From Ottowia thiooxydans DSM 14619 (GTDB taxonomy: Bacteria > Pseudomonadota > Gammaproteobacteria > Burkholderiales > Burkholderiaceae_C), in contig NZ_AUGX01000011.1 in the NCBI RefSeq assembly GCF_000422885.1, positions 248,001 through 312,000 on the forward strand: a stretch of 64,000 nt of DNA, in the 5' to 3' direction. Below the pieces are notes generated by a model. The model had not been told where the DNA came from. It worked only from the letters and a program-made list of their open reading frames with translations, and made no database searches. Made by a program: the position numbers and the translations under genes. Position 1 is the stretch's first letter. Each line of letters begins with the position of its first letter. Positions 22,107 through 58,584 of the stretch are shown one piece after another.

Positions 22107-22215
22107 GACTGTGAAATAGCACTTAGTGTATGAGTCGATGCGAATTCATTGCCATTAGTCTATTTCAAAAGCGTACAGTTGAAGGACAAAAGGACCAGCC
22201 ACTTACTGGCATCAA

Positions 22216-24054: not shown

Positions 24055-24080
24055 ACCGTTTTTTTCCTTGGAGTAAACCC

Positions 24081-42788: not shown

Positions 42789-43451
42789 CTACTCAGGGCG
42801 ACCCAACGCCGACTCAGGCTTGGCCGAATCTTCTTTCGCTGCTCCCGCAGCTTCTCGGCGGGGTGGTTTTTCCCTCGGCGGTTTTGAGGTGTGAATCAGC
42901 ACGGTCGCGGGGGCTATCTCGCCAGCAGCCAGCAGGGGGAGGGCTTTTGCAGATCGAGCCACGGCCTCCTCCACAGCGATGAGTTCATCTGCCGGTGGTT
43001 TTTTCAGCACCCAGCCCACCACCTGCGATTTGTCGCCCGGGTGGCCAACGCCCAGCCTCAGCCGCCAGTAATCGGAAGAGCCCAGCTGTGCATGGATATC
43101 CCGCAGGCCATTGTGGCCGGCGTGCCCGCCGCCTTTTTTTAGCTTGACCTGTCCAGGTGGAAGATCAAGTTCGTCGTGCGCGACCAGAATCTCTTCTGGA
43201 GCAATTTTGTAAAAACGCGCCAGTGCCGCCACCGATTTGCCAGACAAATTCATGAAAGTCTGGGGTTCCAGCAGCCAGAGAGTGCGCCCCTGTACATTCG
43301 TGCGTGCCACTTTTCCGTGGTATCCGCGCTCCATCACCAGATTGGCGCCCAGTGAGCGTGCCACGGCGTCAATCCACCAAAACCCGGCGTTATGCCGGGT
43401 ATCTTCATACTCAGGGCCTGGGTTGCCGAGGCCTACGAACAGCTTGATCAT
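42789..43451 (-). CDS. pth: Peptidyl-tRNA hydrolase
   Basis: 220 residues from the ATG at 43451; longer frames upstream are out of family. It releases tRNA from peptidyl-tRNA dropped by ribosomes. Motifs: [17 protein letters not shown] with the catalytic histidine, FMNLSGKSV, and [27 protein letters not shown]. The C-terminal 25 residues are a charged tail. The -10-like GATAAT on the reverse strand lies seven bases before the ATG, so the mRNA may be nearly leaderless. The start codon is part of an 18-bp sequence repeated at 52404. Confidence 0.96.
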
Positions 43452-43466
43452 GTGGGGATTATCGGG
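43449..43466. repeat. 18-bp direct repeat, left copy, at the pth start
   Basis: CATGTGGGGATTATCGGG, identical to 52404-52421. On the coding strand of pth it contains the start codon and the preceding GATAATCCCC. The two copies bracket the 8.9-kb regulator/transporter/peptidase/aminotransferase block. Confidence 0.75.
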
Positions 43467-43560
43467 TGGTCTGTGAGGCGCGGCCGCTGGTTGCCTTCTT
43501 GCCAGCTTTTGGAGCGTTGGAACGGGGCTTACCGTTCTTGAAAAGGAGATTCTTCGACAC
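43459..43560 (-). CDS. Possible small basic protein of unknown kind
   Basis: From GTG 43560 to TAA 43459 the reverse strand encodes 33 residues ([14 protein letters not shown]..., very lysine- and arginine-rich), ending 8 bases before the pth ATG. The frame is open without a stop back to about 43690 but contains no ATG. It resembles the tail of a longer basic protein more than a complete gene. Treat as a possible gene remnant exposed by the insertion at this point. Confidence 0.25.
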
Positions 43561-43574
43561 GATTGAGCACTCAT

Positions 43575-44030
43575 GCCGATGAGAACGACATGAGTCCAGT
43601 ATGTGCCGAAACTTCTTCAGAGCGAGAATTATGTGTATTGAGGTGTCGTCGACGGTGACGCTCTTTTTTACACGCCAATTTGGTGCCTCTCCTCACCCGC
43701 GATAACCATGCGCAGGCCTTAACACGTTGCTGAAATACTCCCCGAAGGTCCGGAAATTGGTTGCGCTTGGGGTGCCTAACCGATCAACCACCTAAAAAAA
43801 TCGCTTATAAGCCGTTTTACGAGGTCACTCTCGTTGGGTGCCAGTCGTCGCGACAGTATTTCAGCAGCCTGTTAAGCCCGCAGCGTCACAGAAACGAAGT
43901 GCACGCCCGTGATCGTGATTCGTACTGCGATCTATTCCCGAGAATCAACCATCCATTATTTGAACTGAGGAATCAATATGGCTTGCAAACAACTTGCTTC
44001 TATTTTTCAACGATATGAGCCGGGAGCACG
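43575..44030. other. Gene-poor boundary and promoter region of the inserted block
   Basis: About 455 bases with lower GC content than either neighbour and no convincing gene. An 85-codon forward frame (43761-44018) has composition and content unlike a protein family. The region presumably contains the promoter and operator of the LysR-type regulator that starts at 44031. Confidence 0.5.
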
Positions 44031-44945
44031 ATGACAGACAATTTGCCAATGGAAAATGATTCGCTGCGTATTCCTCCACTGACCGCCGTTAGGTCTTTTT
44101 TTGCCTTGGGGCGACACAAGAGTATTCGCAAGGCCGCCGCAGAACTCGACGTCACCCATACCGCAGTCATTCGTCAAGTCCGAATCCTGGAGTCCTGGCT
44201 GGGCGCATCCTTGATCGAAACGACTTCAACTGGAACCAGCCTGAATGCCCAAGGGCTGCGGTTTCACAACTCGCTGCAAAGTGCCTTCAAGATCATCTCT
44301 GATGCGACCGCTGAAATCCGCCCGCCGGGACAGACCAGGGAATTGCGCATTTGCGCGCCGCCGGGATTTGCCACGTTCTGGATACTTCCCCGCCTTCACG
44401 AGATCCAGCGGCAACTACCATCCGTTGCTTTCGAGATCATTCCCTTCGAGGCCCACCGCTTCGACCCAAATAGCTTCGATGTGGAGATTGCCTACGGCGA
44501 CAGGGAGGGCAACGCACTGATCAACATCGAACTGATCCGCCCTCGGATGAGAGTGCTTGCATCGCCCGCCTGGATCGATAGCCATCCGGAAGTTCGGAAT
44601 GCCTCTGACCTGATGCACGTATCGTTGATTCATGAACGCTTGACCGATGTTTGGCGTGCCTGGTTCGAGGCGTTGGACCTAGTCCCGGGACGCTTGGCAG
44701 GTCCGCGTGTAGGAGCCCTGACCACGGTGCTCGAGGCGGTGCACATGCATCAGGGACCAGGAGTTTTTGCCCAGATTTTCGTAGATCAACCTTTGACGCG
44801 CGGGGTGTTGCAGCCGGTGGTCGACGACTCGCCGCGGGTCGATGCCTATCGCTTGGTGACGACCCCCGAACGCTACGCCGACCCGGTGGTCAAACGGTTT
44901 GTCGAATGGCTTCATGCGAGTCTCGACGAGGCCAGACAGACCTGA
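44031..44945 (+). CDS. LysR-family regulator, GcvA-like
   Basis: 304 residues. The opening IPPLTAVRSFFALGRHKSIRKAAAELDVTHTAVIRQVRILE is the GcvA-type winged helix, and the effector domain starts near 97 (RELRICAPPGFATFWILPRLHE). GcvA-like regulators commonly control amino acid or beta-lactamase genes. Here it is in line with and just upstream of the ABC transporter genes (gap 159 bases), unlike the usual divergent layout, and probably regulates them. Confidence 0.9.
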   Translation: MTDNLPMENDSLRIPPLTAVRSFFALGRHKSIRKAAAELDVTHTAVIRQVRILESWLGASLIETTSTGTSLNAQGLRFHNSLQSAFKIISDATAEIRPPGQTRELRICAPPGFATFWILPRLHEIQRQLPSVAFEIIPFEAHRFDPNSFDVEIAYGDREGNALINIELIRPRMRVLASPAWIDSHPEVRNASDLMHVSLIHERLTDVWRAWFEALDLVPGRLAGPRVGALTTVLEAVHMHQGPGVFAQIFVDQPLTRGVLQPVVDDSPRVDAYRLVTTPERYADPVVKRFVEWLHASLDEARQT

Positions 44946-45104
44946 ACGGCGCCCTGATACCACTGCGTGAAAGGCTTCTTGTGGAAACTTTGAGTCACCA
45001 CGGTGTTGTCTTTTAGAGGACTTACCAGCGGGAGGGTGCATACCTAAACTGTGGTTCTGCCAGCTGCATACCTGGGTGCAGCGCACAAACCAAGGAAATT
45101 CGGT

Positions 45105-46289
45105 ATGAATAAAAAATATCAGTTTTTGCTGATGCTTGCCACATTTAGCCTGTCCAGTTCGGTGTTCGCACAAGCTGGTGAAATTCGAATCGTACATATT
45201 CACAGCATGACCGGACCGCAAGAGGATCTGGGCCGACAAACGAGGCTGGGACTGCAGATTGGCCTCGACTATGCGACCAACGGCACTCGGATGCTGCACG
45301 GGAAAAAGATCGTCCTGATCGAGAAGGATGACCAGGGTAAGCCGGATGTGGGCAAAGCCCTGCTGGCTGCCGCGTACTCCGACGACAAAGCTGATATTGC
45401 CATCGGCCCCACTATGTCGAATGTCGCGCTGGCAATGCTGCCAGTCGCCGAAGAATACAAAAAGGTCCTGATCGTCGAACCGGCAGTTGCTGACTCGATT
45501 ACCGGCGATAAATGGAACCGCTATATATTTCGGACCGGTCGAAACAGTACCCAGGATGCAGTTGCCAATGCGGCGGCCATCGATGGCCCGGGAGTTTCTA
45601 TTGCTACGCTGGCCCAGGACTATGCCTTTGGCAAGGACGGCGTGCGGGCCCTGAAGGCGGCGATCAAGAAGGGAACGGTTGTGCACGAGGAGTACGCACC
45701 GCCGACGACCAGTGATTTCACGGCGAGCGCGCAACGCATCATTGACAAGCTGAAGGACCGTCCGGGCCGCAAGGTCATCTGGATACTCTGGTCCGGTGCC
45801 GGAAATCCCTACAAGATCATCGATATGGACCTCAAGCGCTACGGTATCGAGGTAGCGTCATTCGGCAATACGTTCGCTGCAATGGCGGCATATAAAAACT
45901 TGCCGGGAATGCAAGGCGCCAGCACCTATTACTTCGGCTTACCCCAAAACAAAGTAAATGATTACCTTGTCGCTGAGCACCAAAAGCGCCACGGCATCCC
46001 GCCTGACACTTTCACCGCCGGCGGATTCTCCGCAGGCGTAGCCGCTGTGACGGCGCTACGGAAAACCGGTGGAGAAACGGGCAGCGCCAAACTCATCGAA
46101 GCCATGGAGGGCATGAGTTTCGAGTCGCCGAAAGGGACGATGACTTTCCGCAAGGAAGATCATCAGGCAATGCAGTCGATGTACCACTTCAAGATCAAGG
46201 TCGACCCGGCACTTGCCTGGGGGGTACCCGAGCTTGTCAAGGAAATCAAGCCGGAAGAGATGGCCATCCCGGTTGCCAACAAGCGATAA
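45105..46289 (+). CDS. Branched-chain-type ABC transporter substrate-binding protein
   Basis: 394 residues from ATG 45105 with AAGGAAA upstream. Signal peptide KKYQFLLMLATFSLSSSVFA. Periplasmic type I fold: EIRIVHIHSMTGPQEDLGRQ, then IGPTMSNVALAMLPVAEEY and IATLAQDYAFGKDGVRALK. The LivK/Leu-Ile-Val receptor family includes receptors for amides, urea, aromatic compounds and peptides, so the ligand is open. First structural gene of the cluster. Confidence 0.9.
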   Translation: MNKKYQFLLMLATFSLSSSVFAQAGEIRIVHIHSMTGPQEDLGRQTRLGLQIGLDYATNGTRMLHGKKIVLIEKDDQGKPDVGKALLAAAYSDDKADIAIGPTMSNVALAMLPVAEEYKKVLIVEPAVADSITGDKWNRYIFRTGRNSTQDAVANAAAIDGPGVSIATLAQDYAFGKDGVRALKAAIKKGTVVHEEYAPPTTSDFTASAQRIIDKLKDRPGRKVIWILWSGAGNPYKIIDMDLKRYGIEVASFGNTFAAMAAYKNLPGMQGASTYYFGLPQNKVNDYLVAEHQKRHGIPPDTFTAGGFSAGVAAVTALRKTGGETGSAKLIEAMEGMSFESPKGTMTFRKEDHQAMQSMYHFKIKVDPALAWGVPELVKEIKPEEMAIPVANKR

Positions 46290-46405
46290 GTGCTTGCCTG
46301 CTGTGGGTGGGCCTGATTTTCGGCTCGCCTTCATGTTTTCACGACTGTGGTGATCGAGGCGCCGGTGAGCCTGCGCATGTCATCGTCTTCCAAAACACTA
46401 TCCCG

Positions 46406-47170
46406 ATGCTTGAAACGCGAAATCTAACCGTGCGGTTTGGTGGGCATACTGCCGTCAACGCAGTGTCATGCAAGTTTTTGCCCGGGACACTGACGGCCAT
46501 CGTCGGCCCCAACGGGGCGGGCAAGACGACCTACTTCAACCTGATCTCGGGCCAACTCAAGGCGACCGCAGGAGAGGTAGAACTCCACGGGCGAAAACTC
46601 GGAGACCTTCCTGCATCCGCCCGCACGCGGGCTGGTCTGGGCAGAGCGTTCCAGCTCACTAACCTCTTCCCGAATCTGTCGGTACTGGAGAACGTACGCC
46701 TCGCCGTGCAAGCTACGCGACAAGGAAAACATCGCCACGGGCACAACCTCTGGAGTGTGTGGAGCGACCACGCGGCCTTGACTGATCGTGCCAGAGATCT
46801 TCTGTTGCAAACCAGGCTTGACTACAAGCAAAACGCCGACGTCGCAAGCTTGCCCCACGGCGACCAGCGAAAGCTAGAGGTTGCGCTGCTCATGGCTCTG
46901 GAGCCACAGGTGTTCATGTTCGACGAGCCGACAGCGGGAATGACGGCCGCGGAGGCGCCTGTGATCCTTGACCTGATCCGTAACCTGAAGCAGGACAGGA
47001 CAAAAGCCATCCTTCTCGTGGAGCACAAGATGGATGTGGTGCGGGAGCTGGCAGACAGGATCATCGTACTGCACAACGGAACACTGGTTGCAGATGGAGA
47101 GCCGTCTGCGGTTATCGCTTCAAGTGTTGTCCAGGAAGCTTACCTGGGCGTTGCTGCGGAGGCTGCATGA
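46406..47170 (+). CDS. Branched-chain-type ABC transporter ATPase (LivG type)
   Basis: 254 residues from ATG 46406. Walker A IVGPNGAGKTTYFN, LivG-typical GLGRAFQLTNLFPNLSVLENV, a signature replaced by LPHGDQRKLEVALLMA (the usual LSGGQ reads LPHGD, as in other LivG-type subunits), Walker B QVFMFDEPTAGM and switch LVEHKMDVV. It overlaps the next gene by four bases. Confidence 0.93.
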   Translation: MLETRNLTVRFGGHTAVNAVSCKFLPGTLTAIVGPNGAGKTTYFNLISGQLKATAGEVELHGRKLGDLPASARTRAGLGRAFQLTNLFPNLSVLENVRLAVQATRQGKHRHGHNLWSVWSDHAALTDRARDLLLQTRLDYKQNADVASLPHGDQRKLEVALLMALEPQVFMFDEPTAGMTAAEAPVILDLIRNLKQDRTKAILLVEHKMDVVRELADRIIVLHNGTLVADGEPSAVIASSVVQEAYLGVAAEAA

Positions 47171-47886
47171 ATCTGCTTGAACTTCATGGCGTGCACAGCC
47201 ACATTGGCGCCTATCACATACTGCATGGTGTTGACTTGGCGGTGCCTAAGGGCCAACTCACAATGTTGCTGGGCCGCAATGGTGCAGGCAAGACGACGAC
47301 TTTGCGGACCATCATGGGTCTGGTCAACGCCAGCCAGGGAAATGTGTGGTTTTCCGGCCAAGAAATCACATCGATGCGAACGCCCGATATCGCCGGCAAG
47401 GGCATCGCGTACGTTCCCGAAACGATGGGCATTTTTTCCGATCTGACAGTCAGGGAAAACATGCTACTTGCAGCACGGTCCGCGAGAAGCCACGAAGGTT
47501 TTGATCAGAAACGGCTGAAGTGGATATTTCAATTGTTCCCTGCCGTGGAGCGCTTCTGGAACCACCCAGCTGGAAAGCTCTCGGGTGGACAAAAGCAGAT
47601 GCTCGCCGTCTCGCGTGCCATCGTGGAGCCGCGCGAGTTACTGGTGATCGACGAGCCCAGCAAGGGACTGGCCCCCGTCATGATCAACAGTCTGATAGAG
47701 GCGTTCTCCCAGCTGAAGTCGAGCGGAGTGACGATCCTGCTTGTCGAACAAAACTTCAATTTCGCCCAGAAGCTTGGCGACACGGTGGCTGTGATGGACA
47801 ACGGTCGCGTAGTGCACAGCGGCGACATGGCCGCCTTCGCGGCTGACGAACAACTGCAGCAGTCGCTGCTTGGACTTGCATTATGA
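47167..47886 (+). CDS. Branched-chain-type ABC transporter ATPase (LivF type)
   Basis: 239 residues. Walker A LLGRNGAGKTTTLRT, the LivF block GIAYVPETMGIFSDLTVRENM, signature KLSGGQKQMLAVSRA, Walker B LLVIDEPSKGLAP, switch LVEQNFNFA. It overlaps both neighbours by four bases, so the ATPase pair and the first permease are translationally coupled. Confidence 0.94.
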   Translation: MNLLELHGVHSHIGAYHILHGVDLAVPKGQLTMLLGRNGAGKTTTLRTIMGLVNASQGNVWFSGQEITSMRTPDIAGKGIAYVPETMGIFSDLTVRENMLLAARSARSHEGFDQKRLKWIFQLFPAVERFWNHPAGKLSGGQKQMLAVSRAIVEPRELLVIDEPSKGLAPVMINSLIEAFSQLKSSGVTILLVEQNFNFAQKLGDTVAVMDNGRVVHSGDMAAFAADEQLQQSLLGLAL

Positions 47887-48866
47887 AACCCCAACTCGAC
47901 TGGAGGCCGATCGCGCTGGTGCCCGCTTTGGCATTCGCAGCCGTACCGCCCACCGGATCTCTTTCAACCTGGATGACGCTGACGGTGGCAGGTCTAGCCA
48001 TGGGCATGATCATCTTCATCATTGCATCGGGGCTGACCCTAATTTTCGGCTTGATGGACGTGCTGAACTTCGGTCACGGCGTGTTCATCGCGCTTGGCGC
48101 TTTCGTGGCTAGCAGCGTTCTGGGTGGCATGGCCGACTGGACGGGTTCTGCCGAGTTATTGCGCAACGTTGTGGCTGTCCTTCCTGCCATGTTGGTTGCG
48201 ATGCTCGTGGCTGCCGCCATTGGCCTGGCGTTCGAACGGTATCTCGTTCGGCCGGTGTATGGCGATCACCTCAAGCAGATCCTGATTACGATGGGCGGGA
48301 TGATCATCGGCGAGGAGCTGATCAAGGTCGTGTGGGGACCGGCTCAGATTCCGCTTCCGTTGCCCGAAGCATTGCGCGGATCCGTGCTGATCGGTGATGC
48401 TGCGGTCAGCAAGTACCGGTTACTGGCGGTCATCGTTGGCTGTGCGGTCTTCGCCATACTGGCATGGACATTGAGCCGCACCAAGATCGGTTTGTTGATT
48501 CGCGCAGGTGTGCAGGATCGAGAGATGGTCGAGTCACTAGGCTATCGCATAAGCCGCCTCTTTGTCGGCGTGTTTGTCGTCGGCAGCGCATTGGCCGGTC
48601 TGGGGGGTGTGATGTGGGGGCTATTCCAGCAAAACTTGGTTCCCCAGATGGGCGCGCAAGTCAACATCATTATCTTTATCGTCATCATCATCGGTGGCCT
48701 TGGCTCTACTGCAGGAGCCCTTATTGGCTCGTTGCTCGTTGGGCTGATGACGAACTACGTGGGTTTCCTGGCGCCGACGCTGACTCAGTTCTCGAGCATT
48801 TTCCTGATGGTCGTAGTGCTGTTGTGGCGACCGCAAGGCCTCTACCCTGTGGCATCCAGCCGTTGA
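47883..48866 (+). CDS. Branched-chain-type ABC transporter permease (LivH type)
   Basis: 327 residues with about eight membrane helices. Family motifs GLTLIFGLMDVLNFGHGVFIALGAF near 46-70 and the coupling stretch GVQDREMVESLGYRISRLF near 202-220. It forms the translocation channel with the LivM-type protein; 11 bases separate them. Confidence 0.93.
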   Translation: MKPQLDWRPIALVPALAFAAVPPTGSLSTWMTLTVAGLAMGMIIFIIASGLTLIFGLMDVLNFGHGVFIALGAFVASSVLGGMADWTGSAELLRNVVAVLPAMLVAMLVAAAIGLAFERYLVRPVYGDHLKQILITMGGMIIGEELIKVVWGPAQIPLPLPEALRGSVLIGDAAVSKYRLLAVIVGCAVFAILAWTLSRTKIGLLIRAGVQDREMVESLGYRISRLFVGVFVVGSALAGLGGVMWGLFQQNLVPQMGAQVNIIIFIVIIIGGLGSTAGALIGSLLVGLMTNYVGFLAPTLTQFSSIFLMVVVLLWRPQGLYPVASSR

Positions 48867-48877
48867 AAAGTCATCAC

Positions 48878-49966
48878 ATGCTCACCCGAATCCTTTCCGG
48901 CGATTTTCCGCGTAGTCGTACGCTGGCTGTTCTTTTGGCACTGGTGCTGATCAGCCTAACTTTTGCACCCTTCCTGTTCCCAGGCATGAAGGCCCTAAGC
49001 GTGGCCGCAAAAATCCTCGTCTTCATCGTCTTGGTGGCGAGTTTTGACCTCTTGCTTGGCTATACCGGCATTGTCAGTTTTGCTCACACCATGTTTTTTG
49101 GCATCGGTGCGTACGGCATCGCGATCTCAGCAAGTCGACTCGGCGCGGGCTGGAATTCGATCTTCGTGGGACTTGCCGGCGCGTTGGTGATATCGACCGT
49201 GTTGGCACTGGCCATTGGCTTGTTTTCGCTGCGCGTGCGCGCAGTCTTCTTTGCCATGATCACGCTGGCGGTAGCGTCGGCCTTTCAGACGTTGGCATCG
49301 CAGCTGTCGGACATCACGGGTGGCGAGGACGGGCTCACGTTCAAGTTGCCCCAGCTGCTCTCCCCGGGCCTTGAGTTTTCGGATCAGCCCTTCCTGGGTG
49401 TCTCGCTTAACGGGCGCCTCTTGTGCTACTACCTGCTTTTCTTGACGGCTGTAGTGTTGGTCCTGGCTCTGCTGCGAATTGTCAATTCTCCTTTTGGTCG
49501 GGTTTTACAGGCAATCCGGGAGAACGAGTTTCGCGCCGAAGCCATTGGTTACCGCGTCGTTGTTTACCGAACCACGGCAGCCGTGCTGTCTGCACTGTTC
49601 GCCACCATTGCCGGTGCTATGTTAGCAATCTGGCTACGCTACACCGGTCCAGATACAACGCTGAGTTTCGAAGTGATGATCGATGTCCTGCTGATCGTCG
49701 TGATCGGCGGTATGGGATCGATCTACGGGGCAGTGGTTGGATCTGTGATGTTCCTAATCGCGCAGAACTACCTCCAGGACCTGCTGGCGGTTACTAGCAA
49801 GGCCCTGCAGGGCATCCCGTTCCTGCATGACCTCTTTTCACCGGACCGCTGGCTCCTCTGGTTAGGTGTTTTGTTCGTGCTCGCCGTCTACTTCATCCCG
49901 AACGGCGTCGTGGGCCGGCTTCGAGGCACACAATTTTTGCCAAGTAATTCTGGAGAGACACCATGA
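48878..49966 (+). CDS. Branched-chain-type ABC transporter permease (LivM type)
   Basis: 362 residues from the ATG at 48878; a much longer frame upstream is the shadow of livH. About nine helices; LLLGYTGIVSFAHTMFFGIGAYG and the coupling loop AIRENEFRAEAIGYRVVVYR are the family markers. The gene overlaps the M81 peptidase by four bases, so uptake and hydrolysis are produced together. Confidence 0.92.
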   Translation: MLTRILSGDFPRSRTLAVLLALVLISLTFAPFLFPGMKALSVAAKILVFIVLVASFDLLLGYTGIVSFAHTMFFGIGAYGIAISASRLGAGWNSIFVGLAGALVISTVLALAIGLFSLRVRAVFFAMITLAVASAFQTLASQLSDITGGEDGLTFKLPQLLSPGLEFSDQPFLGVSLNGRLLCYYLLFLTAVVLVLALLRIVNSPFGRVLQAIRENEFRAEAIGYRVVVYRTTAAVLSALFATIAGAMLAIWLRYTGPDTTLSFEVMIDVLLIVVIGGMGSIYGAVVGSVMFLIAQNYLQDLLAVTSKALQGIPFLHDLFSPDRWLLWLGVLFVLAVYFIPNGVVGRLRGTQFLPSNSGETP

Positions 49967-51444
49967 AAATTGCAGTTGGTGCAATGTTGTACGAGGGAAA
50001 TACGTTTGCGAGAGGAGAGACTGGCCTGGCCGCGTTCCAAAGCAATTACCTCTTTGAGGGAGCGGAGATACTGGAGCGGCTCATTGATGGTGACGTCGAG
50101 GTGTCTGGTGCATTGAAAGTGCTGCAGGCGTCCGGGGCAACCATCGTGCCGCTCATTGCAACGCACGGAGGGTGCGGCGGTAAGTTGGTAGCCGGATGCT
50201 TTGAAGAACTTTGCTCCAGGTTGTTGAGCCGGATGGACTGTGACGTCGATGGCGTTTACTTGGCCCTGCATGGCGCGATGGTGTGCGCTGACGAACCCGA
50301 ACCTGAGGTGGCGCTCATGCAACGCATCAGGGAGCTAGTAGGTTCGGTACCCATCGTCGTGACGCTTGACCTTCATGCACACATCACACCCAAGTTGCTC
50401 TCACTGTGCGATGCGATCGTCGGCTACCAGCACTACCCTCACGACGATGCCTTCGAAACCGGGGTAAGGGGTGCGAGCCTTCTGCTGCAGTCCCTGGGTG
50501 GCAGAGCCCGGCTGACCAGCCGCATGCGTAAACTCTCACTCCTGGTACCGCCAACGACGGCGGGCACCCGGCTGCCGACGCCGATGCGCGAGATGTACCG
50601 GCAGTGCCGTAGCCTCGAAGGCCTGCCCGGGATTCTCGCGGTGAGTTATTTTCCCTCGACCCCATGGGCCGAGCGTCCCGATGGTGGCACCGCTTTCGTC
50701 GTGGTAACCGATGGCACAGCGGTAGACGTCGAAACCCATCTCGAAAAACTGTGCACGGTTTTGTGGCGTTCCCGGTCCAGGTTTCAGCCTGACGTTCACC
50801 TGCTGGAAGACGTAATCTCCCTGACTGCCCACGACATCGCAGGCCCGGTGATTGTCAGTGAGATGTCAGACGCAGTTGGCGCGGGCGCAGCGGGCGACAG
50901 CGCATACATCCTGGAAAAATTCAAGCACTCCGCAGTGCAAACGCCAGTGCTCATTCAGATCGTGGATCCGGAGGTCAGTGCCCTTGCCCGGCGGTACGGC
51001 GTCGGGAGCCGCATTTCTTGTGTGATCGGCAACAAGGTAGAGAACCGATATGGTGAGCCGGTTGAATTGACTGCGGAAGTATTGAGTTTCTTCGATGGCG
51101 CGTTTACTTACTCAGGCGGGCTCATGAGCGGTATCCGCGCCACGGTTGGCCCGTCCGCCGTCATCCGTGCGCGAAACATCACGATCCTGGTCACCGACAG
51201 GCCGGCCTACGAGTACGCAGACGAGCAATATGCCGCAGCCGGGCTGAACGTGCGCGAGTTCCAGTACGTAGTGGTCAAGAACCCGATGAATTTTCAACAG
51301 GTGTATGCCTGGGCTCCGAAGCGATTCGGGCTCGACACGCCCGGCGCGGGTCGCGCGGACCTGACCAAGCTCGAGTGGGAAAGCTGTCAGCGTCCGTTTT
51401 ATCCCCTGGATGACAGCGAAGAGGCCATATACCGAAGTACGTAA
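49963..51444 (+). CDS. M81 (MlrC/DUF1485)-family metallopeptidase-like protein
   Basis: 493 residues. Expected zinc ligands lie in VVTLDLHAHITPKL (D and H) and GYQHYPHDDAFETG (H); LALHGAM near 102 is the third conserved block. MlrC of the microcystin degraders cleaves a linear tetrapeptide and Adda-containing fragments; most M81 members, including those linked with ABC transporters, have no known substrate. It follows livM with a four-base overlap and precedes an aminotransferase by 41 bases. A role as peptidase or amide hydrolase releasing an amino acid for the transaminase is an inference. Confidence 0.9.
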   Translation: MKIAVGAMLYEGNTFARGETGLAAFQSNYLFEGAEILERLIDGDVEVSGALKVLQASGATIVPLIATHGGCGGKLVAGCFEELCSRLLSRMDCDVDGVYLALHGAMVCADEPEPEVALMQRIRELVGSVPIVVTLDLHAHITPKLLSLCDAIVGYQHYPHDDAFETGVRGASLLLQSLGGRARLTSRMRKLSLLVPPTTAGTRLPTPMREMYRQCRSLEGLPGILAVSYFPSTPWAERPDGGTAFVVVTDGTAVDVETHLEKLCTVLWRSRSRFQPDVHLLEDVISLTAHDIAGPVIVSEMSDAVGAGAAGDSAYILEKFKHSAVQTPVLIQIVDPEVSALARRYGVGSRISCVIGNKVENRYGEPVELTAEVLSFFDGAFTYSGGLMSGIRATVGPSAVIRARNITILVTDRPAYEYADEQYAAAGLNVREFQYVVVKNPMNFQQVYAWAPKRFGLDTPGAGRADLTKLEWESCQRPFYPLDDSEEAIYRST

Positions 51445-51485
51445 GCGTGATGGCAGGGACCGTAGAACAGAAAAAGGACTGATAA

Positions 51486-52397
51486 ATGGATACGGAAAAA
51501 TTCAGGAATGGCGCAGCCTATGTGGGTGGTAAATTTGTACCTTTCAGCGAGGCTGCGATTTCAGTAGCCGACTGGGGTTTCACCCGGTCCGACGCCGTGT
51601 ATGACGTCGTGCACGTTGATGACTACCGGTTCTTTCGCTTGAAGGACCACGTGGAGCGCTTCGAAGCTTCGATGAAAAAACGACGCATTGACGTCGGTCT
51701 GAGCACTCAAGAAATCGAAGTCGTGCTACACCGCGTGGTCGCGCTTTCAGGTCTGTCGAGTGCTTACGTTGCCATGGTGGCGCTGCGGGGACGTCCGAGG
51801 GTCGTCGGCTCGAGGCGGCCTGAAGATTGCACTAACCACCTAGTTGCCTACGCCGTGCCATGGGTCGATGTGATTTCCAAAGAGATGCAGGAAACAGGGG
51901 CCACGCTCTGGATTTCCGAGCATCCGCGAGTACCCGATGCGTCTGTAGACCCTGCTGTCAAAAACTATCAGTGGAGTGATCTGACCTCGGCACTTTTCGA
52001 GGCGCACGACCACGGCTATGAGACAGCAGTTCTTTGTGATGCTGAAGGGTTCGTCACTGAAGGGCCCGGGTTTAATGTGTTCGTGGTAAAGGAAGGCCGG
52101 CTGGTCACACCGGACCGAGGTGCATTACCTGGCATCACTCGCAAGACGATCTTGGAATTATGTGCCGAACTCGGTGTCCCGCATTCGATCGGCCCGGTAT
52201 CGAGGTCTGACTTGCAGAGCGCAGACGAAGTTTTCATCAGCTCGTCAGCTGGCGGTGTCATGCCGGTGCGACAGGTCTCCGACGGGGGCGCATTGCCTGG
52301 ATCTGGCGGAACTGTTTTCCGTTCAATCAGAGAAGCCTATTGGTCAGCACATAAACGCCCGCTATTCTCTACGCCGGTGGAGGCGGTCCAGGCTTAG
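51486..52397 (+). CDS. Class IV aminotransferase (D-alanine/branched-chain type)
   Basis: 303 residues. The PLP lysine is in VDPAVKNYQWSDLTSALFEA and the glycine-rich phosphate region in TEGPGFNVFVV; SSSAGGVMPVRQV is the fold class IV C-terminal signature. Fold class IV members act on branched-chain L-amino acids, D-amino acids, or as (R)-amine transaminases; the sequence alone does not decide. With its location after an M81 hydrolase and amino acid-type transporter it most likely deaminates the imported or released amino acid, perhaps a D- or beta-amino acid. Start ATG 51486 follows GGACTGATAA. Confidence 0.9.
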   Translation: MDTEKFRNGAAYVGGKFVPFSEAAISVADWGFTRSDAVYDVVHVDDYRFFRLKDHVERFEASMKKRRIDVGLSTQEIEVVLHRVVALSGLSSAYVAMVALRGRPRVVGSRRPEDCTNHLVAYAVPWVDVISKEMQETGATLWISEHPRVPDASVDPAVKNYQWSDLTSALFEAHDHGYETAVLCDAEGFVTEGPGFNVFVVKEGRLVTPDRGALPGITRKTILELCAELGVPHSIGPVSRSDLQSADEVFISSSAGGVMPVRQVSDGGALPGSGGTVFRSIREAYWSAHKRPLFSTPVEAVQA

Positions 52398-52403
52398 GCA
52401 TCG

Positions 52404-52421
52404 CATGTGGGGATTATCGGG
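52404..52421. repeat. 18-bp direct repeat, right copy
   Basis: CATGTGGGGATTATCGGG, exact copy of 43449-43466, seven bases after the aminotransferase stop codon. On the reverse strand it reads like the start region of pth but is followed by unrelated sequence, so one copy was generated by the event that placed the block. Confidence 0.75.
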
Positions 52422-52500
52422 CGATGAGTGAATCGTGGTCGTTGGGGGCCCTATTGCAATACGATACCTGCGTGAGCGGACTGCCCTGGGGGCTCCGTGG

Positions 52501-53598
52501 CTACGCACCCTCCATGGAATGGTTCGGCAAGGGCGCGCCTCTGCGCCACTGCCCAGGTGTCTCGCCCGTCCAGCGCTTGAAGGCGCGCTGGAAAGCGCTC
52601 TGCTCCGAGAAGCCGAGAAGGAATGCAATGTCTACCAGGGATAGCCGCGTGTCGCGTATGTAGCTGAGCGCCATCGCCTGGCGCAAGTCATCGACAAAGG
52701 CGCGAAAGCTCAGATTGTGTTGTGCGAGCAATGCTTTGAAGTCGTCGGGCGTGACCCCTATAGCGGCGGCTATCCTGCTTGGTTCGGGGCCGCCACTCTT
52801 GAACGCATCCAGAGTGGCGCGGCGGGCGGGCTCCAGCCAGGCGGGCTCGAATGCGCTGGCGAGCTGTTGCATCAGCTTGGCACACAGCTCTTCCATCATC
52901 CGCCGCACCTGCGGGTCGGCGTGCGGCAGCGCCAGGCTGGCTATGCGGGCATCGAAGGCGATGGCCTGTGTATCCTCGCCAAAGCGCAGCGGGCAACGAA
53001 ACAGGGCTTCATACTCTGCGGAATCCTCGGGTGGCGGATAGCGAAACGACGCCCAGAGCGGAGTGGCGTCTTCCCGGTTCGTGATCCAGCGGCCAAAGGT
53101 GACGGCAATCGCGTGCTGCAGGTCTTCGCAGATGCGCCCTAGCGGCGCGTTGCCGGGCAGGTTGCTATGGATAGTTCGCACGAACTCGTCGCCGCGTTGC
53201 TCGATGACGTTGCGGCAGGCGTCTATGGTGAGAGCCGAGTAGCGCGCCGACTGCCGCGCCAGATCCAGGGCATCGGTGCAGTTCATGAGTGCATAGCCGT
53301 GTGAACCGAGGTGGCCCGGCCGGATCGAGGCGCCCAGGTGGAGGCCTAGTGAGGGGTCGCCAAGCAGCTCTGCCGCCGCATCGCACAGCGTGCGAAACAC
53401 GTCAAAGGGTACGCGGCCATTGGCATCGCCTTGCGTGGCAGAAGCCGGCAGGCCCGCGCGCGCCAGGAGCGCAGGCATGGCCAAACCTTTGCGCTCGGTG
53501 TAGTCCGCCAGCAGTTGAAAGAAGTGCACGGCCACGGAAAACCCCTCACCGGGTGGCGCTGGTTGGTGCGGTGGGGCGTGATTTGCGAGTTTGTCCAT
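52501..53598 (-). CDS. AraC-family regulator (OruR/ArgR-like architecture)
   Basis: 365 residues from the ATG at 53598. The N-terminal 'Arabinose-binding domain' type region (FFQLLADYTERKGLAMPALLARAG, LGLHLGASIRPGHLGSHGYAL) is found in regulators such as OruR and VirS. The C-terminal double HTH contains AIGVTPDDFKALLAQH and SLVDIAFLLGFSEQSAFQRAFKRWTGETPGQWR. It is divergent from the M24 hydrolase with only 91 bases between, so it most likely controls that operon. Confidence 0.93.
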   Translation of the reverse strand: MDKLANHAPPHQPAPPGEGFSVAVHFFQLLADYTERKGLAMPALLARAGLPASATQGDANGRVPFDVFRTLCDAAAELLGDPSLGLHLGASIRPGHLGSHGYALMNCTDALDLARQSARYSALTIDACRNVIEQRGDEFVRTIHSNLPGNAPLGRICEDLQHAIAVTFGRWITNREDATPLWASFRYPPPEDSAEYEALFRCPLRFGEDTQAIAFDARIASLALPHADPQVRRMMEELCAKLMQQLASAFEPAWLEPARRATLDAFKSGGPEPSRIAAAIGVTPDDFKALLAQHNLSFRAFVDDLRQAMALSYIRDTRLSLVDIAFLLGFSEQSAFQRAFKRWTGETPGQWRRGAPLPNHSMEGA

Positions 53599-53689
53599 GG
53601 GCAGTTCGGTCAATTCTCCCGCAGATTGGTCAATACGCCCCGCTCGCTTCCACCTAGAGTTCGGGACACAAAAATATGAGGAGACATGC

Positions 53690-54592
53690 ATGCCTCTTGG
53701 CTATACGCCCGAACCTACGGGACCTCTCGACCGGCTCTACCGCAGCATCTCACGTTACGCCTCGCACCGGATGGCTGGCGGGGCCGACCGCCAGGCTACG
53801 GCCGAGGCATTAAAGGGCTTTCGCCGCGCACAGCGCCTAGCCTATGACGCAGTTGAGCATGTGGCTGCCCAACTAGTGCCGGGAATAACCGAGCGCGAGG
53901 CCGCTGATCTGCTTGCCGACTATCTGCGAGAGCACGGCACCGAACGCTTCCTGCACCGCCCGTTTGCATGGTTTGGTGACCACGCGCGGTTCGATGGGTA
54001 TTCGGGTTATGGCGACTACCACCCCAGTGACACGCCGCTGGAGCAGGGTGCAACGGCCATCCTCGACGTATCGCCCATCCTCGACGGCTACATCGGAGAC
54101 GTAGGCTATGCCGTGTCTGTTGGGCCGAATCCCGAGCTGGAGAAGGCGCGTGAATTCATGCTGGTCTTGCGCAGCGAGATTCCTGCGATGTTCGCCAGCG
54201 CAATGACACCGGCTGAGATCTGGCATACGGTGAACAGACGCATCATCGGTGCCGGTTATGACACTGTCCATGCCAAGTACCCGCACTGTGTGCTGGGCCA
54301 CCGGGTTTTCCGGATGAAGGTGCGCAAGGGAAGCTCGGCCCGAGTGGGTTTCCGCGCCTTCGGCTGGTTTTCGCTGGACACCAACCTCGCATTCCTGCGG
54401 CTTGGGCCATCGGCGGCGCTGTCGCCCGAGCACGTGGGACGCAAGCTGGGGTTGTGGGCAATAGAGCCGCACATTGGCTGGCCGGGTGGGGGATGCAAGT
54501 TCGAGGAAATCCTGGTGGTGGAGGAAAAGCGCTGCTATTGGCTGGACGATGACGTACCTCATGTGCGAAATGGCCGGAGGGCCGCCTCGTGA
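53690..54592 (+). CDS. M24 (pita-bread fold) metallohydrolase
   Basis: 300 residues from ATG 53690, with GAGGAG upstream. All five expected metal ligands can be placed: D in ILDVSPIL, D in IGDVGYAV, H in VLGHRVF, E in WAIEPHIG and E in KFEEILVV. The family includes aminopeptidase P, methionine aminopeptidase, creatinase and ectoine hydrolase; which activity applies is unknown. The sequence around the catalytic histidine (HCVLGHRVFRMKV) is not the usual H-x-x-G-H-G-I-G. It shares a four-base overlap with the next gene and is under the divergent AraC regulator. Confidence 0.88.
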   Translation: MPLGYTPEPTGPLDRLYRSISRYASHRMAGGADRQATAEALKGFRRAQRLAYDAVEHVAAQLVPGITEREAADLLADYLREHGTERFLHRPFAWFGDHARFDGYSGYGDYHPSDTPLEQGATAILDVSPILDGYIGDVGYAVSVGPNPELEKAREFMLVLRSEIPAMFASAMTPAEIWHTVNRRIIGAGYDTVHAKYPHCVLGHRVFRMKVRKGSSARVGFRAFGWFSLDTNLAFLRLGPSAALSPEHVGRKLGLWAIEPHIGWPGGGCKFEEILVVEEKRCYWLDDDVPHVRNGRRAAS

Positions 54593-55839
54593 AAAAAGTA
54601 CGCATCTTCGCCATTGCCGCCATAGTGGTCATTGCCGGTTGGTGGGTGGCTGCCGCCCCGGCGTCGCACTATTCGCCCGCGGTCGCGCTGGCCATTGACG
54701 GCGAGGCTGAGCGCGCAGCGCTCGCCGTAGACAAATCCGCCGACTTCGCCACGGGACTGGAAGTGCTGGAGGCTGCGGTCCCGGGATACGACGACGTTGT
54801 GTTCCTCGATCAAGGTAAGCGCTGGCTGCTGTCTGCGATGGACGGACGCATCTGGTCGTACGACCCGGCGGCGCGCAAGGCAGAGCCATTCGTCGACACG
54901 CCGCTGATGGCGGCCGGCCTGCATGAGTCGCCCACGGACCATGACACGGTGTATTTTTGCGCCTCTCGGCTGTGGGGCAGCACCTATCCAGAAGGCGAAC
55001 GCGTTGGCCTGTATCGCCTCTCGGTGTCGACAAGGAAGATCGAGCCGCTGGTGCTGGATGTGCCGGACACGGTCATCGACGGCCAGAGGGCCTGGGGTCT
55101 TGCCGATGCCGGCGCGCCGCAGTCCGTACGTGGCGTTGCAAGCGGCAAACAACGCCCGCTCGCCTTCTGCAATGATCTGGAGGTGTCGGCCGACGGCAAG
55201 CGCATTTACTTCTCGGAGCCTTTCGCTTATGCGGGCGCTTCCATGGGCGGAGGGGCGGTGCCAGAGGCGGTGGCCTTTCGCGGCAACGGCCGGATCTGGA
55301 TGCACGAGGTCGTCACGGGGCAAACGCGCTTGGTTGCCCAAGGCGTGCACTTCCCCGACGGACTATTGGTGGACCTCCACCCCGGCCAAGACCAGGAACA
55401 GTCTATTCTCACCAGCCTGACGACCAGCTTTCAGATCGCGCGTGTCCACGTGAGCGGACCGAAAGCAGGGCGTATCGAGCTTGTGCAAAACGGCCTTGCG
55501 GGCATGTGTGACGGCATGGATCGTGACGCCGCAGGTCGCATATGGTGCGGTATGTATGCTCAGCGCTCTCCCCTCATGACCTGGCTGCATGGCAAGCCTT
55601 GGGCCAAGGAGGTGCTACTGCGTCTACCCCTCAACTTGATGCCCCAGCCTAGGACCACCGGTGTCCTGGTGTTGAGCCCCGACGCCGCCAAACCGCTGTA
55701 TAGCGCTTGGTACACCGGTGCCAAGCTCGTGCACAACGCCTCTGCCTTGCCAGGGCCTGACGGTTATGTCTACATGGCGCCGTTCTCAAGCAAGCAACGC
55801 GGGATTGTGCGGATTAAGAACCCTCTGGGGGATAGCTAG
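54589..55839 (+). CDS. SMP-30/strictosidine synthase-like beta-propeller protein
   Basis: 416 residues starting at a GTG, overlapping the M24 stop. An N-terminal helix (VRIFAIAAIVVIAGWWVAAA) is a signal anchor or signal peptide, so the propeller lies in the periplasm. Propeller-type blocks include DDVVFLDQGKRWLLSAMDGRIW, FCNDLEVSADGKRIYFSEPF, GVHFPDGLLVDL and NGLAGMCDGMDRDAAGRIWCG. Related proteins are calcium-dependent lactonases or strictosidine synthase-like. No substrate can be inferred. Confidence 0.87.
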   Translation: MKKVRIFAIAAIVVIAGWWVAAAPASHYSPAVALAIDGEAERAALAVDKSADFATGLEVLEAAVPGYDDVVFLDQGKRWLLSAMDGRIWSYDPAARKAEPFVDTPLMAAGLHESPTDHDTVYFCASRLWGSTYPEGERVGLYRLSVSTRKIEPLVLDVPDTVIDGQRAWGLADAGAPQSVRGVASGKQRPLAFCNDLEVSADGKRIYFSEPFAYAGASMGGGAVPEAVAFRGNGRIWMHEVVTGQTRLVAQGVHFPDGLLVDLHPGQDQEQSILTSLTTSFQIARVHVSGPKAGRIELVQNGLAGMCDGMDRDAAGRIWCGMYAQRSPLMTWLHGKPWAKEVLLRLPLNLMPQPRTTGVLVLSPDAAKPLYSAWYTGAKLVHNASALPGPDGYVYMAPFSSKQRGIVRIKNPLGDS

Positions 55840-55840
55840 C

Positions 55841-56878
55841 ATGGCTCTGCGCTCTATAGCGCGCCGCGTCTTGCGCTGGAGCGCGGTTGGGGTAGCGGGA
55901 GTGATCGTTGGTTTGCTGGCGTGGTCGCTGGTAGTCGATACGCAGCCGATGCACGTAGCTGATGATTCGGGCGATGCACGCTTGGCCGACGTCTACCTCA
56001 ACACGCCCGATGCACAACGCGCGGCCAACTTCTACGCCAAGGTATTCGGGGGGACGCCGGAGACGGCGCAATCGACGCATGCCAGCCTTCTCGGTGCCAC
56101 CGACCCGGTGATCCGCGTGCGCACGCCAGGTTATGCCGGGCAGGCGCCCGCTCTCGCCTTCATCTCTCGACCCACAGGAGGCGACCGTCCTCTTGGCCCG
56201 CAGGACCTTGGCTATGCCCACCTGTGCTTTGAGGCCGACGATGTGGCAGCGGTTGTTGCCTTGATAGAGGCTCATGGCGGCAAGGTTTCGAGCCGCTTCG
56301 ACAAACCGGCCCGGGCGCCGGTCATCTACGCTACTGACCCTGATGGCAACACCATCGAGGTTCATGTGCCCCTGCCGTCGCCACTCACACCGGGTACGGT
56401 GGTGCGGGCCGTCCGCGCGATGGCTAAGACGTATTTGCAACTCGGCGTGCCGGAGAACCGCGTCAGGTTCCTGCACGTCAACATCAACACCCCTGATTGG
56501 AAGCGGACGCTGGATCAGTATGAAGCTGGCGGAATCGGCAAGCCCACGGGCGTACAGCGGGCTTACGATGGTGATTTTATTGGCACCCTCACCGGCGTGC
56601 CAGGCGCGCGCGTCCATGGTCGCCATCTGGCCCTGGATGGCTACAGTACCGGCGGGCCTACGCTGGAAGTTTTCACCTATTTGGGGCAAGCCGGCACACG
56701 GCGCCTAGGCCTTGCAGACCCCGGCGTGATTGCGACCGGCTTCGCAGCAACAGATGTAGAGCTCGTGGCACGCCGGCTTGAGGCTGCCGGATTCAAGGGC
56801 GAGCGGGCAAACGGTAGTGCTCGCCTGATGCGAGATGGGGATGGCAACCGATTGCTGGTGTTTCCGCGTTTGCCCTGA
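55841..56878 (+). CDS. Membrane-anchored double VOC-domain protein
   Basis: 345 residues from ATG 55841, one base after the preceding stop. A basic N-terminus and helix (VAGVIVGLLAWSLVV, about 14-30) anchor it. Two vicinal-oxygen-chelate domains follow: residues about 45-180 (DVYLNTPDAQRAANFYAKVFG, YATDPDGNTIEVHVP) and about 205-344 (RVRFLHVNINTPDWKRTLDQYE, LMRDGDGNRLLVF). VOC proteins include glyoxalase I, extradiol dioxygenases and resistance proteins. An outside-facing VOC protein in an operon with a periplasmic propeller is unusual. Confidence 0.87.
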   Translation: MALRSIARRVLRWSAVGVAGVIVGLLAWSLVVDTQPMHVADDSGDARLADVYLNTPDAQRAANFYAKVFGGTPETAQSTHASLLGATDPVIRVRTPGYAGQAPALAFISRPTGGDRPLGPQDLGYAHLCFEADDVAAVVALIEAHGGKVSSRFDKPARAPVIYATDPDGNTIEVHVPLPSPLTPGTVVRAVRAMAKTYLQLGVPENRVRFLHVNINTPDWKRTLDQYEAGGIGKPTGVQRAYDGDFIGTLTGVPGARVHGRHLALDGYSTGGPTLEVFTYLGQAGTRRLGLADPGVIATGFAATDVELVARRLEAAGFKGERANGSARLMRDGDGNRLLVFPRLP

Positions 56879-56910
56879 AACTGCTCAAACCGGCGCCTGG
56901 ACGCGGGCGC

Positions 56911-57001
56911 CATGTATCTCTGTGCCAGTGGCTCCGCTGGCGGCGAGCGTTCTCTTGGCGTGCTGGCCTTGGCTGTGCCCACCTGTGCTTTTAGGCCGAC
57001 T
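56911..57001 (+). pseudogene. Remnant of a second VOC gene
   Basis: The segment GGCGGCGAGCGTTCTCTTGG followed by CTTGGCTGTGCCCACCTGTG and CTTTTAGGCCGAC closely matches the first VOC domain of the upstream gene (GGAGGCGACCGTCCTCTTGG, CTTGGCTATGCCCACCTGTG, CTTTGAGGCCGAC at about 56178-56243). It carries a one-base deletion and a stop codon (TAG for GAG). It shows that the VOC gene once had a tandem paralogue that has decayed. The rest of the 56879-57048 gap shows nothing more. Confidence 0.75.
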
Positions 57002-57048
57002 GCTCACGGAGCTCAAAGCCGCATCTGCGTCGGGCACCAAAGGCTATC

Positions 57049-57693
57049 TCATTCTGACGGTGACGGTAGCTCAATCAAACCTGATAGCGGTACAGAATCG
57101 ATTCGCTCAGCGCTTGCAATCACGATCGCGCGGCCGGGTTGACCAGCGACATCGGAGAGGACTCGCCACAAGAAACGAATCGAATTGGCATCGAGCGCTG
57201 AGGTTGGTTCATCGAGTAATGTGAGCGCGCGTCCTGACGCAAGCGCAGCCGCCAGCCAGACTTTTCGCTTCGACCCGGTGGAGAGCATGTACATTGGCTT
57301 GTCGAGATGCGGAGTTAGAGAGAAGCCCTCTACAAGTGATTGCCACATCTGCGCGTCGAAGCGCGAATCTCCCGCACTCAAGGACAACGTGCACTCCGTC
57401 GCCGAGATCTGATCGAATGCGTCGGTCGCTGGTTCAACAAAGAACACGTTCTGCCGATAGGCTTCGGGGTCTTCGTGTAGGCCCGCCCCGGCAACGTTTA
57501 GCTGACCTTCGCCGCGAAGGTTTCCTGCAAATAACCGGAGGATGGTCGACTTTCCACTCCCGTCGCCACCATAGAGCTGGGTTAGCCCGGTACCGACGTG
57601 AACGCTCCAAGCAGATAAAAGCGCAGGCCTGTGTGCGTAAGCGAAGCTCAAATTTTTGACGACGAGAATGGACGCGGTTGACGCTGAGTTCAT
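57049..57693 (-). CDS. Orphan ABC transporter ATPase
   Basis: 214 residues. Walker A LYGGDGSGKSTILRLF, signature LSTGSKRKVWLAAALA (LSTGS in place of LSGGQ), Walker B ALTLLDEPTSALD. It resembles CcmA-like and small exporter ATPases. No permease gene is adjacent. The 3' end is 170 bases from the VOC operon and is convergent with it. Confidence 0.85.
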   Translation of the reverse strand: MNSASTASILVVKNLSFAYAHRPALLSAWSVHVGTGLTQLYGGDGSGKSTILRLFAGNLRGEGQLNVAGAGLHEDPEAYRQNVFFVEPATDAFDQISATECTLSLSAGDSRFDAQMWQSLVEGFSLTPHLDKPMYMLSTGSKRKVWLAAALASGRALTLLDEPTSALDANSIRFLWRVLSDVAGQPGRAIVIASAERIDSVPLSGLIELPSPSE

Positions 57694-57969: not shown

Positions 57970-58584
57970 TTACTTCTTCTCTGGGGCAGCAGGAGCCGCA
58001 GCGGCTTCAGGAGCAGCTTCTTCGGCCGCAGGATTCACCACCGACACCAACACAGGGTTGGCTTTACCGTGCAGAACGGCTTTCACGCCTTTAGGCAGCG
58101 TGACATCGTTCAGCGTCAGGGTGGCGCCTTTTTCCAGCTTGGAGAGGTCGATGTTGATCGCCTCAGGCAAGTCGGAAGGCAGGCAGGACACTTCGAGTTC
58201 GGTCAGAACGTGGTTAACCAGGCACTTGTCGAGCTTGACGGCGTTCGACTCTTCTTCACCGGAGTAGTGCAATGGCACTTTGGTGTGAAGCTTGGTCTTG
58301 GCAGACACGCGTTGGAAATCGATGTGCAGAATGAGTTGTTTGAACGGGTGGATCTGCAGATCACGCAGCAGCACCGGGCTGGTCTTGCCGTCCAGGTCCA
58401 TGTCGAGCACGGACGAGTGGAAAGCTTCTTTTTTGATGGCTTGCCACAATGCATTGTGGTCGAGCTCGATCAGCTGGGGCTCGCCCTCGCCACCGTAAAC
58501 AATACCGGGCACTTTGCCGGCGTTGCGGAGACGGCGGCTCGCACCCGTACCCTGCTTAGCGCGCTCAAAAGCGACAAATTTCAT
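57970..58584 (-). CDS. rplY: 50S ribosomal protein L25/general stress protein Ctc
   Basis: 204 residues, the long TL5/CTC type (E. coli L25 is 94). The N-terminal 5S rRNA-binding domain includes [21 protein letters not shown] and the C-terminal CTC domain runs from about 95, ending in an alanine/proline/glutamate-rich tail. It binds 5S rRNA in the large subunit. It follows prs by 93 bases, the order known from many proteobacteria; pth normally comes next but is 14.5 kb away here. Confidence 0.96.

Follow-up and report, generated by a model that had tools for sequence, protein, structure and literature searches.

Closest described systems

Integrative elements such as SXT, which sits in prfC, occupy the 5' ends of housekeeping genes, where they leave a short repeat and supply the upstream region of the gene; they carry an integrase. 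The segment described here, an island located at the start codon of pth within a 64-kb window (the whole stretch of DNA that was analysed), shares with such elements the short 5'-end repeat and the supplied upstream region, but no integrase was found among its scanned proteins.

The microcin H47 island of E. coli is bounded by imperfect direct repeats of 144-148 bp that are 76% identical, with identical stretches of 11-20 bp, and has no recombinase of its own; its excision has been demonstrated experimentally (PMC3191183, PMC5426353). The pth island is also small, has imperfect repeats (76% over 54 nt) with an 18-bp identical stretch and has no recombinase of its own, but its repeats are 54-58 nt long and lie on the putative promoter core of an essential gene. 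An extension of its repeat beyond 18 bp, as in an H47-type island, is probable.

Homology-facilitated illegitimate recombination has one homologous and one illegitimate end, needs no recombinase and usually produces a deletion of comparable size, with 3-10 bp of microhomology; in the study cited, most of 60 clones carried a duplication instead, explained by one crossover with a circular molecule (PMC3240628). It is this duplication outcome that comes closer to the pth island, where, unlike in the usual deletion, no loss is visible.

An island at the start codon of pth

The sequence CATGTGGGGATTATCGGG is present exactly at both 43449-43466 and 52404-52421 (+ strand coordinates). In the left copy, CAT is the start codon of pth (42789..43451, - strand; PF01195), which is intact, and the 18-mer reads on the - strand as the pth core (GATAAT box) plus ATG. 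The right copy, which begins at the seventh base past the stop codon of an aminotransferase gene (the stop ends at 52397), is a pth core with its start codon, orphaned and directed towards the 3' terminus of that gene. The preliminary description had reported an exact repeat placed inside the pth 5' end and seven bases after the aminotransferase stop, and the coordinates bear out both points. The scatter of the 18-mer over unrelated places that it had named as an argument against insertion was looked for in the whole genome (7,046,641 bases), which holds just two copies, and none of a reversed control.

Even with up to 3 mismatches allowed, the window contains no third site, and two matches were reached in 1 of 100 shuffles. 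First-order simulation of 20 sequences of 64 kb gave 19 without a repeated 18-mer and one with a single such repeat; in the window itself, 11 maximal exact direct repeats reach at least 18 nt, and 8 of them lie wholly inside 1.8-4.6 kb.

In the nearest relative compared (G010), the pth start codon is followed by a single leader copy (17/18) and then by an AraC-type gene, and the island is absent. This is the uninterrupted site with one copy of the 18-mer that the preliminary description had expected in a relative. The empty-site evidence comes from this one genome, which is 78% complete, and the leader of the sole empty site seen resembles the right copy. Relative to it, the island amounts to 8,955 bp added, with no visible loss of target sequence. 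As judged from these comparisons, an insertion at the pth start is supported.

The repeat as a conserved pth core

GATAAT is found within 20 nt of the ATG at 21 of 26 pth loci in the genus (chance 0.0012), and a strict GATAATC-spacer-pth-start pattern was detected in 50 of 399 family genomes, with 0 for the control. By this conservation the 18-mer is a pth core, GATAAT box plus ATG, with a predicted promoter function. The repeats at the island ends may be two versions of the pth promoter core, rather than a scar left by the enzyme of a mobile element.

Similarity of the arms beyond the 18-mer

Past the 18-mer the two copies stay similar on one side. There the left arm (43467..43506, +), on the island side, matches the right arm (52422..52461, +) at 64% for about 40 nt, after which the similarity ends; the right arm is the resident leader and shares 83% identity with the G010 pth leader across 42 nt, the left arm being 69% identical to that leader (39 aligned nt). 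In successive 10-nt bins that begin at the start codon, the copies agree at 10, 9, 5, 7, 6 and 5 positions, then at 2, 2, 1, 2 and 2, and the imperfect direct repeat as aligned covers 54 nt at 76%. Over the 36 nt past the 18-mer, 23 bases match in register (chance p 4e-6); among 318,394 ungapped positions, just 3 equalled or exceeded 23/36: those of the query and of the right copy, and an unrelated site that scored 24. In the comparison with G010, with the register kept fixed, the left arm has only 19/36, a score reached at 306 positions. On the opposite side, where pth is set against the aminotransferase gene and no homology is expected, the bins are 2, 5, 5, 4, 2 and 1 (14/30, chance p 0.016). 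When the left arm was compared with other pth leaders (51 of 54, the 3 without a GATAAT box having been dropped), matches averaged 11.1/40 with a maximum of 16, compared to 26 for the right arm and 23 for G010, each of these two scores counting 3 bases of the 18-mer. It is unlikely, from these matches, that the arms resemble each other past 18 bp by chance, and the left arm is probably a true, diverged homologue of the pth leader.

Transposition, or fill-in after a staggered break, would account for the repeat as an 18-bp target duplication and leave the further similarity to chance. Although this would agree with the exact duplication without visible loss, with a free local alignment of the flanks past the 18-mer that scored 12, not above shuffles (mean 9.7, sd 1.6, max 16, n=500), and with an outlier position of the left arm that reaches just p 0.075, we regard it as distinctly improbable, as it has to contend with the 23/36 further matches in register, with island ends that have no terminal inverted repeats of at least 15 nt (both inverted pairs found are internal) and with scanned proteins that include no transposase.

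The difference between left/right (25/39) and right/G010 (35/42) gives p 0.075, and p 0.16 when the 18-mer, where left equals right and G010 differs once, is added. The left copy tends to fall outside the right/G010 pair in these alignments (64% vs 83%, p 0.075), a placement that is not settled. Three points make the initial view, that the repeat is an attachment site or a duplicated target, less well supported than the insertion itself: similarity passes 18 bp, those 18 bp are a pth core that is conserved, and the left copy shows this tendency. Two pth leaders united by recombination fit somewhat better. Genome comparisons, one scan of which scored two candidates per genome, found no donor with the left leader, and the left arm had no match among plasmids and phages.

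An exchanged tract on both sides of the island

Within pth, 66 of 80 third positions in codons 2-81 are the same as in G010, compared to 37 of 79 in codons 82-160 (Fisher p 2.7e-6); codons 1 to about 88 lie in a tract recently shared with G010, and the remainder is at background divergence. On the opposite flank, fourfold-site distances between G010 and G000, the genome that carries the island, are 0.20-0.29 in the araC block, as opposed to 0.66-1.03 in transporter genes, ferredoxin and pth. By these comparisons, both flanks are parts of a single tract, recently exchanged between G000 and G010, which the island divides, so that the order of the island relative to gene exchange can be read from its flanks.

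The reverse order would have the island and left leader resident, with the right leader and araC block imported later from a G010-like relative, the pth 5' end converted separately and the 18-mer a conserved orthologous sequence. The right leader and araC block are indeed young, and the identity of the left arm to G010 (69%, 39 nt) is near that of background neutral sites (pth fourfold mismatch 0.46). However, the high-identity tract resumes beyond the island in pth codons 1-88, so this order needs two flanking tracts, and we consider it improbable.

Recombinases and a possible origin of the island

No integrase or transposase was recognized by Pfam among the eight island proteins, which agrees with the absence of an integrase noted in the preliminary description. 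An additional 85-aa frame (43761-44015) has no Pfam match and encodes no integrase or transposase, and the only Pfam match of a 77-aa - strand frame in the left arm (E 0.07) is below the cut-off. Genome-wide, PF00589 has 20 matches, with 0 on the island's contig. Evidence from ComEC is weak, because the control genomes include E. coli.

The 20 PF00589 matches could supply an integrase in trans, and site-specific integration would take the 18-mer as an att core located at the 5' end of pth, with the integrase lost or acting from elsewhere and the left arm supplying the upstream region of pth. SXT in prfC is a precedent for integration into a housekeeping gene at its 5' end, and the exact 18-bp identity, the lack of visible target loss and the boundary right at the start codon are all as expected. 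Against this, the scanned island proteins include no integrase, the contig has no PF00589 match, and an att site is not expected to show left-arm homology to the resident leader unless that arm was captured. Overall we judge site-specific integration to be unlikely, though the strongest of the rival readings.

The account that we put forward, tentatively and as somewhat short of probable, is that the island brought its own diverged copy of the pth leader and, having no recombinase itself, entered the chromosome at the core shared by both leaders; the microcin H47 island is a precedent for this. The incoming DNA, probably from a related bacterium, would have borne this leader, and a crossover would have taken place inside the 18 bp common to both leaders, the conserved pth core, possibly singly, with the DNA in circular form, or as an additive event with one-sided homology. 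The island would in this way have been added cleanly between the pth start codon and its upstream leader; pth would retain its core promoter and reading frame, with the left arm of the island becoming its upstream region and the old leader orphaned at the right-hand end. Since the importer genes of the island have relatives in the genus at 68-78% DNA identity, the donor may plausibly be a related bacterium.

A stretch of 18 bp is short for RecA. Homology alone does not explain a junction exactly at the start codon, an observation that counts against a crossover between leaders.

More generally, the -10/start core of pth could be a natural docking site, where islands with a captured pth promoter arm are swapped between related bacteria without their own recombinase; we hold this to be very doubtful, but if true, an essential gene would stay expressed at every step. 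The locus is a clean insertion that lacks its own recombinase and sits precisely on the putative core promoter of an essential gene. It can also serve as a test of how to distinguish direct repeats that an insertion generates from homologous regulatory sequences united by recombination; the repeat and the empty site by themselves would have pointed to an attachment site.

Gene content of the island

The island encodes a LysR-family regulator (44031..44945, +; PF00126, PF03466), a LIV-type periplasmic binding protein (45105..46289, +; PF13458; PDB 3n0x, 5.3e-153), LivG-like and LivF-like ABC ATPases (46406..47170 and 47167..47886, both + and PF00005), LivH-like and LivM-like permeases (47883..48866 and 48878..49966, both + and PF02653), an M81 family, MlrC-like metallopeptidase (49963..51444, +; PF07364, PF07171; PDB 3iuu, 7ylq) and a class IV aminotransferase (51486..52397, +; PF01063; PDB 8zm7, 6snl). 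With MlrC and other M81 hydrolases, and with fold-IV amine transaminases, the island proteins share PF07364, PF07171 and PF01063 (PDB 7ylq, 3iuu, 8zm7). Near the left end lies a MITE-like element (43715..43879) with 25-nt imperfect terminal inverted repeats, of which a 95% copy over 153 nt is present at G000:C2:252450-252601.

Both M81 domains score above the curated cut-off (244.3 and 119.1 bits), while microcystinase MlrC proper was rejected for this protein (NCBIfam NF041767, 95 bits vs a cut-off of 999). Its nearest named relatives, at 58-59% in Herbaspirillum autotrophicum and Allopusillimonas ginsengisoli, have different transporters beside them, and no plasmid match was obtained at 1e-80. 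The aminotransferase is nearest in sequence to solved amine transaminases, with entries named branched-chain aminotransferase scoring almost equally, and is predicted to be an amine-type class IV enzyme as its closest assignment. The importer genes have a paralogous LIV operon (G000:C3:327897-332809, 69-71%), and the importer part has matches below 1e-100 in 17 of 28 other genus genomes. The whole island as a local duplicate is ruled out for the M81 gene, whose 4 other copies in the genome are at 24-28%. Against plasmids, the island DNA gave one 50-bp match only, in the first ATPase gene (4 Azospirillum records). The best explanation of this gene set is that the segment represents a horizontally acquired, putatively catabolic island comprising LysR, a LIV-type importer, an M81 hydrolase and a class IV (amine-type) transaminase.

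The interval between pth and rplY

Of the 26 genomes of the genus in which pth was matched, 21 have it adjoining rplY, a count that includes G013 as judged from a pth fragment at a contig end; for G003, G007 and G025 the surroundings of pth were compared at the level of reading frames. The usual adjacency and the present distance of about 14.5 kb to rplY (57970..58584, -; PF01386), which had been remarked on from the outset, both hold, but the island makes up only 8.96 kb of it. The other 5.5 kb or so is a separate block (52501..57693) encoding an AraC-type regulator, an M24 peptidase, a 416-aa protein for which Pfam gave no match, a glyoxalase-like protein and an ABC ATPase. This block is mostly present in G010 as well, at low synonymous divergence, with the glyoxalase-like gene there in pieces only.

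Clean insertion of a catabolic operon at the pth start codon

The two copies of the 18-bp repeat bounding the island, at 43449-43466 (left, on the pth side) and 52404-52421 (right, on the aminotransferase side), are identical, in agreement with the preliminary description, and have no third copy in the Ottowia thiooxydans genome. The left copy starts on the pth start codon; the first base of the right copy is the seventh past the stop of the aminotransferase gene. The window contains 11 exact direct repeats of at least 18 nt, 8 of them wholly inside 1.8-4.6 kb; among the local repeats, 1831-2194 is duplicated in direct orientation at 4266-4569, the longest exact run in the pair being 62 nt.

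A pth match was found in 26 of the 29 genus genomes searched and, by our own count, rplY adjoins it in 21 of these, so the two genes are usually adjacent, as had been stated; the exceptions are O. thiooxydans, G010, G003, G007 and G025. In G010, the nearest relative by pth among the genomes compared (88-89%), pth is followed directly by an araC-type gene, with one leader copy between them matching the 18-mer at 17 of 18 positions. Comparison with this one genome, which is 78% complete and has a single contig spanning the site, supplies the uninterrupted version that an insertion at the pth start predicts: 8,955 bp have been added in O. thiooxydans, with no visible loss of target. We conclude that a catabolic operon was cleanly inserted here and that its junction is informative.

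The repeat and the pth leader

Read on the pth strand, the 18-mer is CCCGATAATCCCCACATG. Of the 26 genus pth loci, 21 have GATAAT no more than 20 nt from the start codon, 6-8 nt upstream of it. A stricter pattern (GATAATC, 3 to 6 nt, ATG and the first pth codons) matched 50 of 399 family genomes, representing 24 of 141 genera, with 349 genomes lacking a match; its reversed control matched none of the 399. This GATAAT looks like a -10 box, which would place the transcription start at or near the ATG, and the near-fixed spacing of GATAATC before the ATG in those 24 genera suggests that their pth mRNA may be leaderless or near-leaderless. Because the 18-mer holds this -10-like box, the repeat coincides with a conserved pth element that is probably functional.

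Outward from the start codon, the left and right copies share 10, 9, 5, 7, 6, 5, 2, 2, 1, 2 and 2 matches per 10 nt, with identity dropping past the 18-mer and stopping about 60 nt from the start codon; the side without expected homology gave 2, 5, 5, 4, 2 and 1 per bin. Past the 18-mer, 23 of 36 nt agree in register; of 318,394 positions scanned, 3 reach this score, namely the query, the right copy and a single unrelated site. The left arm (the ~40 nt adjoining the left copy) is unlike other pth leaders (51 of 54 leaders), with a mean score of 11.1/40 and a maximum of 16, but scored 26 against the right arm and 23 against G010, with 3 bases of the 18-mer counted in both of these scores. Free local alignment of the flanks beyond the 18-mer did not score above shuffles, and the left arm against G010 in fixed register was unremarkable (19/36). 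Arm identities were 64% for left/right, 69% for left/G010 and 83% for right/G010. If insertion had created the repeat, the left copy would be expected to resemble the right one more than the right one resembles the leader of another species; left/right identity is instead lower than right/G010 identity, which speaks against such an origin. Set against a two-leader origin are the free alignment, the 19/36 score, the bins on the side without expected homology and the p value for 25/39 versus 35/42 (p 0.075; p 0.16 counting the 18-mer). On balance, the ends are probably two pth leaders, not one sequence duplicated by insertion.

Mechanism of entry

No recombinase was found among the island proteins scanned. 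The genome-wide search, which covered PF00589, gave 20 matches, all of them off the island's contig. The insertion proposed in the preliminary description stands; its reading of the pth start as an attachment site is one candidate among others and does not have the strongest support. The nearest known parallel is the microcin H47 island, for which PMC3191183 and PMC5426353 describe imperfect repeats at 76%, recombination inside short identical stretches without a recombinase, and excision unchanged in those mutants of site-specific and homologous recombination that were tested. In homology-facilitated illegitimate recombination (HFIR), according to PMC3240628, target DNA is usually deleted, whereas the pth-start island is an addition with nothing visibly lost. 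Because circular molecules gave duplications in that system, an additive single-crossover form, by which the island may have entered, fits better than the usual HFIR outcome. The presence of ComEC in the genome is weak evidence on mechanism. The island probably belongs, as a new member, with the recombinase-less, repeat-flanked islands.

The island splits a probably exchanged tract

O. thiooxydans and G010 are collinear at ~80% over most of the contig. Third positions are the same as in G010 at 66/80 in pth codons 2-81 but only 37/79 in codons 82-160; codons 2-81 of 21 other loci gave 0.30-0.70 per bin, with the exclusion of three loci that lack the usual start region. Fourfold-site distances to G010 are 0.20-0.29 for the araC, M24, 416-aa and ABC genes, which lie across the island from pth, intermediate for rplY (0.48) and prs (0.57), and 0.66-1.03 for ferredoxin, pth and the dpp-type transporter genes; other parts of the window also show values of 0.48-0.50 and 0.11-0.16. 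Because third-position sharing and fourfold-site distances both indicate low divergence there, recent exchange probably affected a tract that runs from the 5' end of pth through the araC block and that the island splits at the pth start codon. In the simplest order, the tract was exchanged first and the island came second; alternatively, the island may be the older feature, with two tracts exchanged separately around it. The araC-M24-416-aa-glyoxalase-ABC block (52422-57693), which has low synonymous divergence to G010, forms a segment of its own between pth and rplY, probably of recent exchange. Its 416-aa gene occurs in 2 of 29 genus genomes, O. thiooxydans and G010. GC is higher in the block, at 0.63-0.64 over 53-57 kb. 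A second stretch, 21132-25500, is ~95% identical to G010 against the 80% background and includes two genes with fourfold-site distances of 0.11-0.16.

Gene content of the island

By Pfam, the island encodes a LysR regulator, a LIV-type binding protein, two ABC ATPases, two BPD_transp_2 permeases, an M81 hydrolase and a class IV aminotransferase. Amine transaminases are the nearest PDB relatives of the aminotransferase, followed closely by entries that bear the name branched-chain aminotransferase. PDB 3iuu and microcystinase C are relatives of the M81 protein, which falls far below the cut-off of the NCBI MlrC model. The operon would likely serve to take up a compound with an amide or amine group and to process it by hydrolysis and then transamination. 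Allopusillimonas and an alphaproteobacterial MAG also have the aminotransferase-M81 pair, beside other transporters; one Rhizobium and one Tistrella plasmid stretch carry the aminotransferase without an M81 match. The importer genes are less exotic than the M81 gene: importer parts have matches below 1e-100 in 17 of 28 other genus genomes (68-78% identity), while the M81 protein at E 1e-100 was found in O. thiooxydans only, among 299 family and 300 order genomes. A second LIV operon is present in O. thiooxydans. At 43715-43879 lies a MITE-like element of ~165 bp whose inverted ends are imperfect and 25 nt long; contig C2 of the same genome holds a copy that is 95% identical over 153 nt, and related ends occur in other family genomes.
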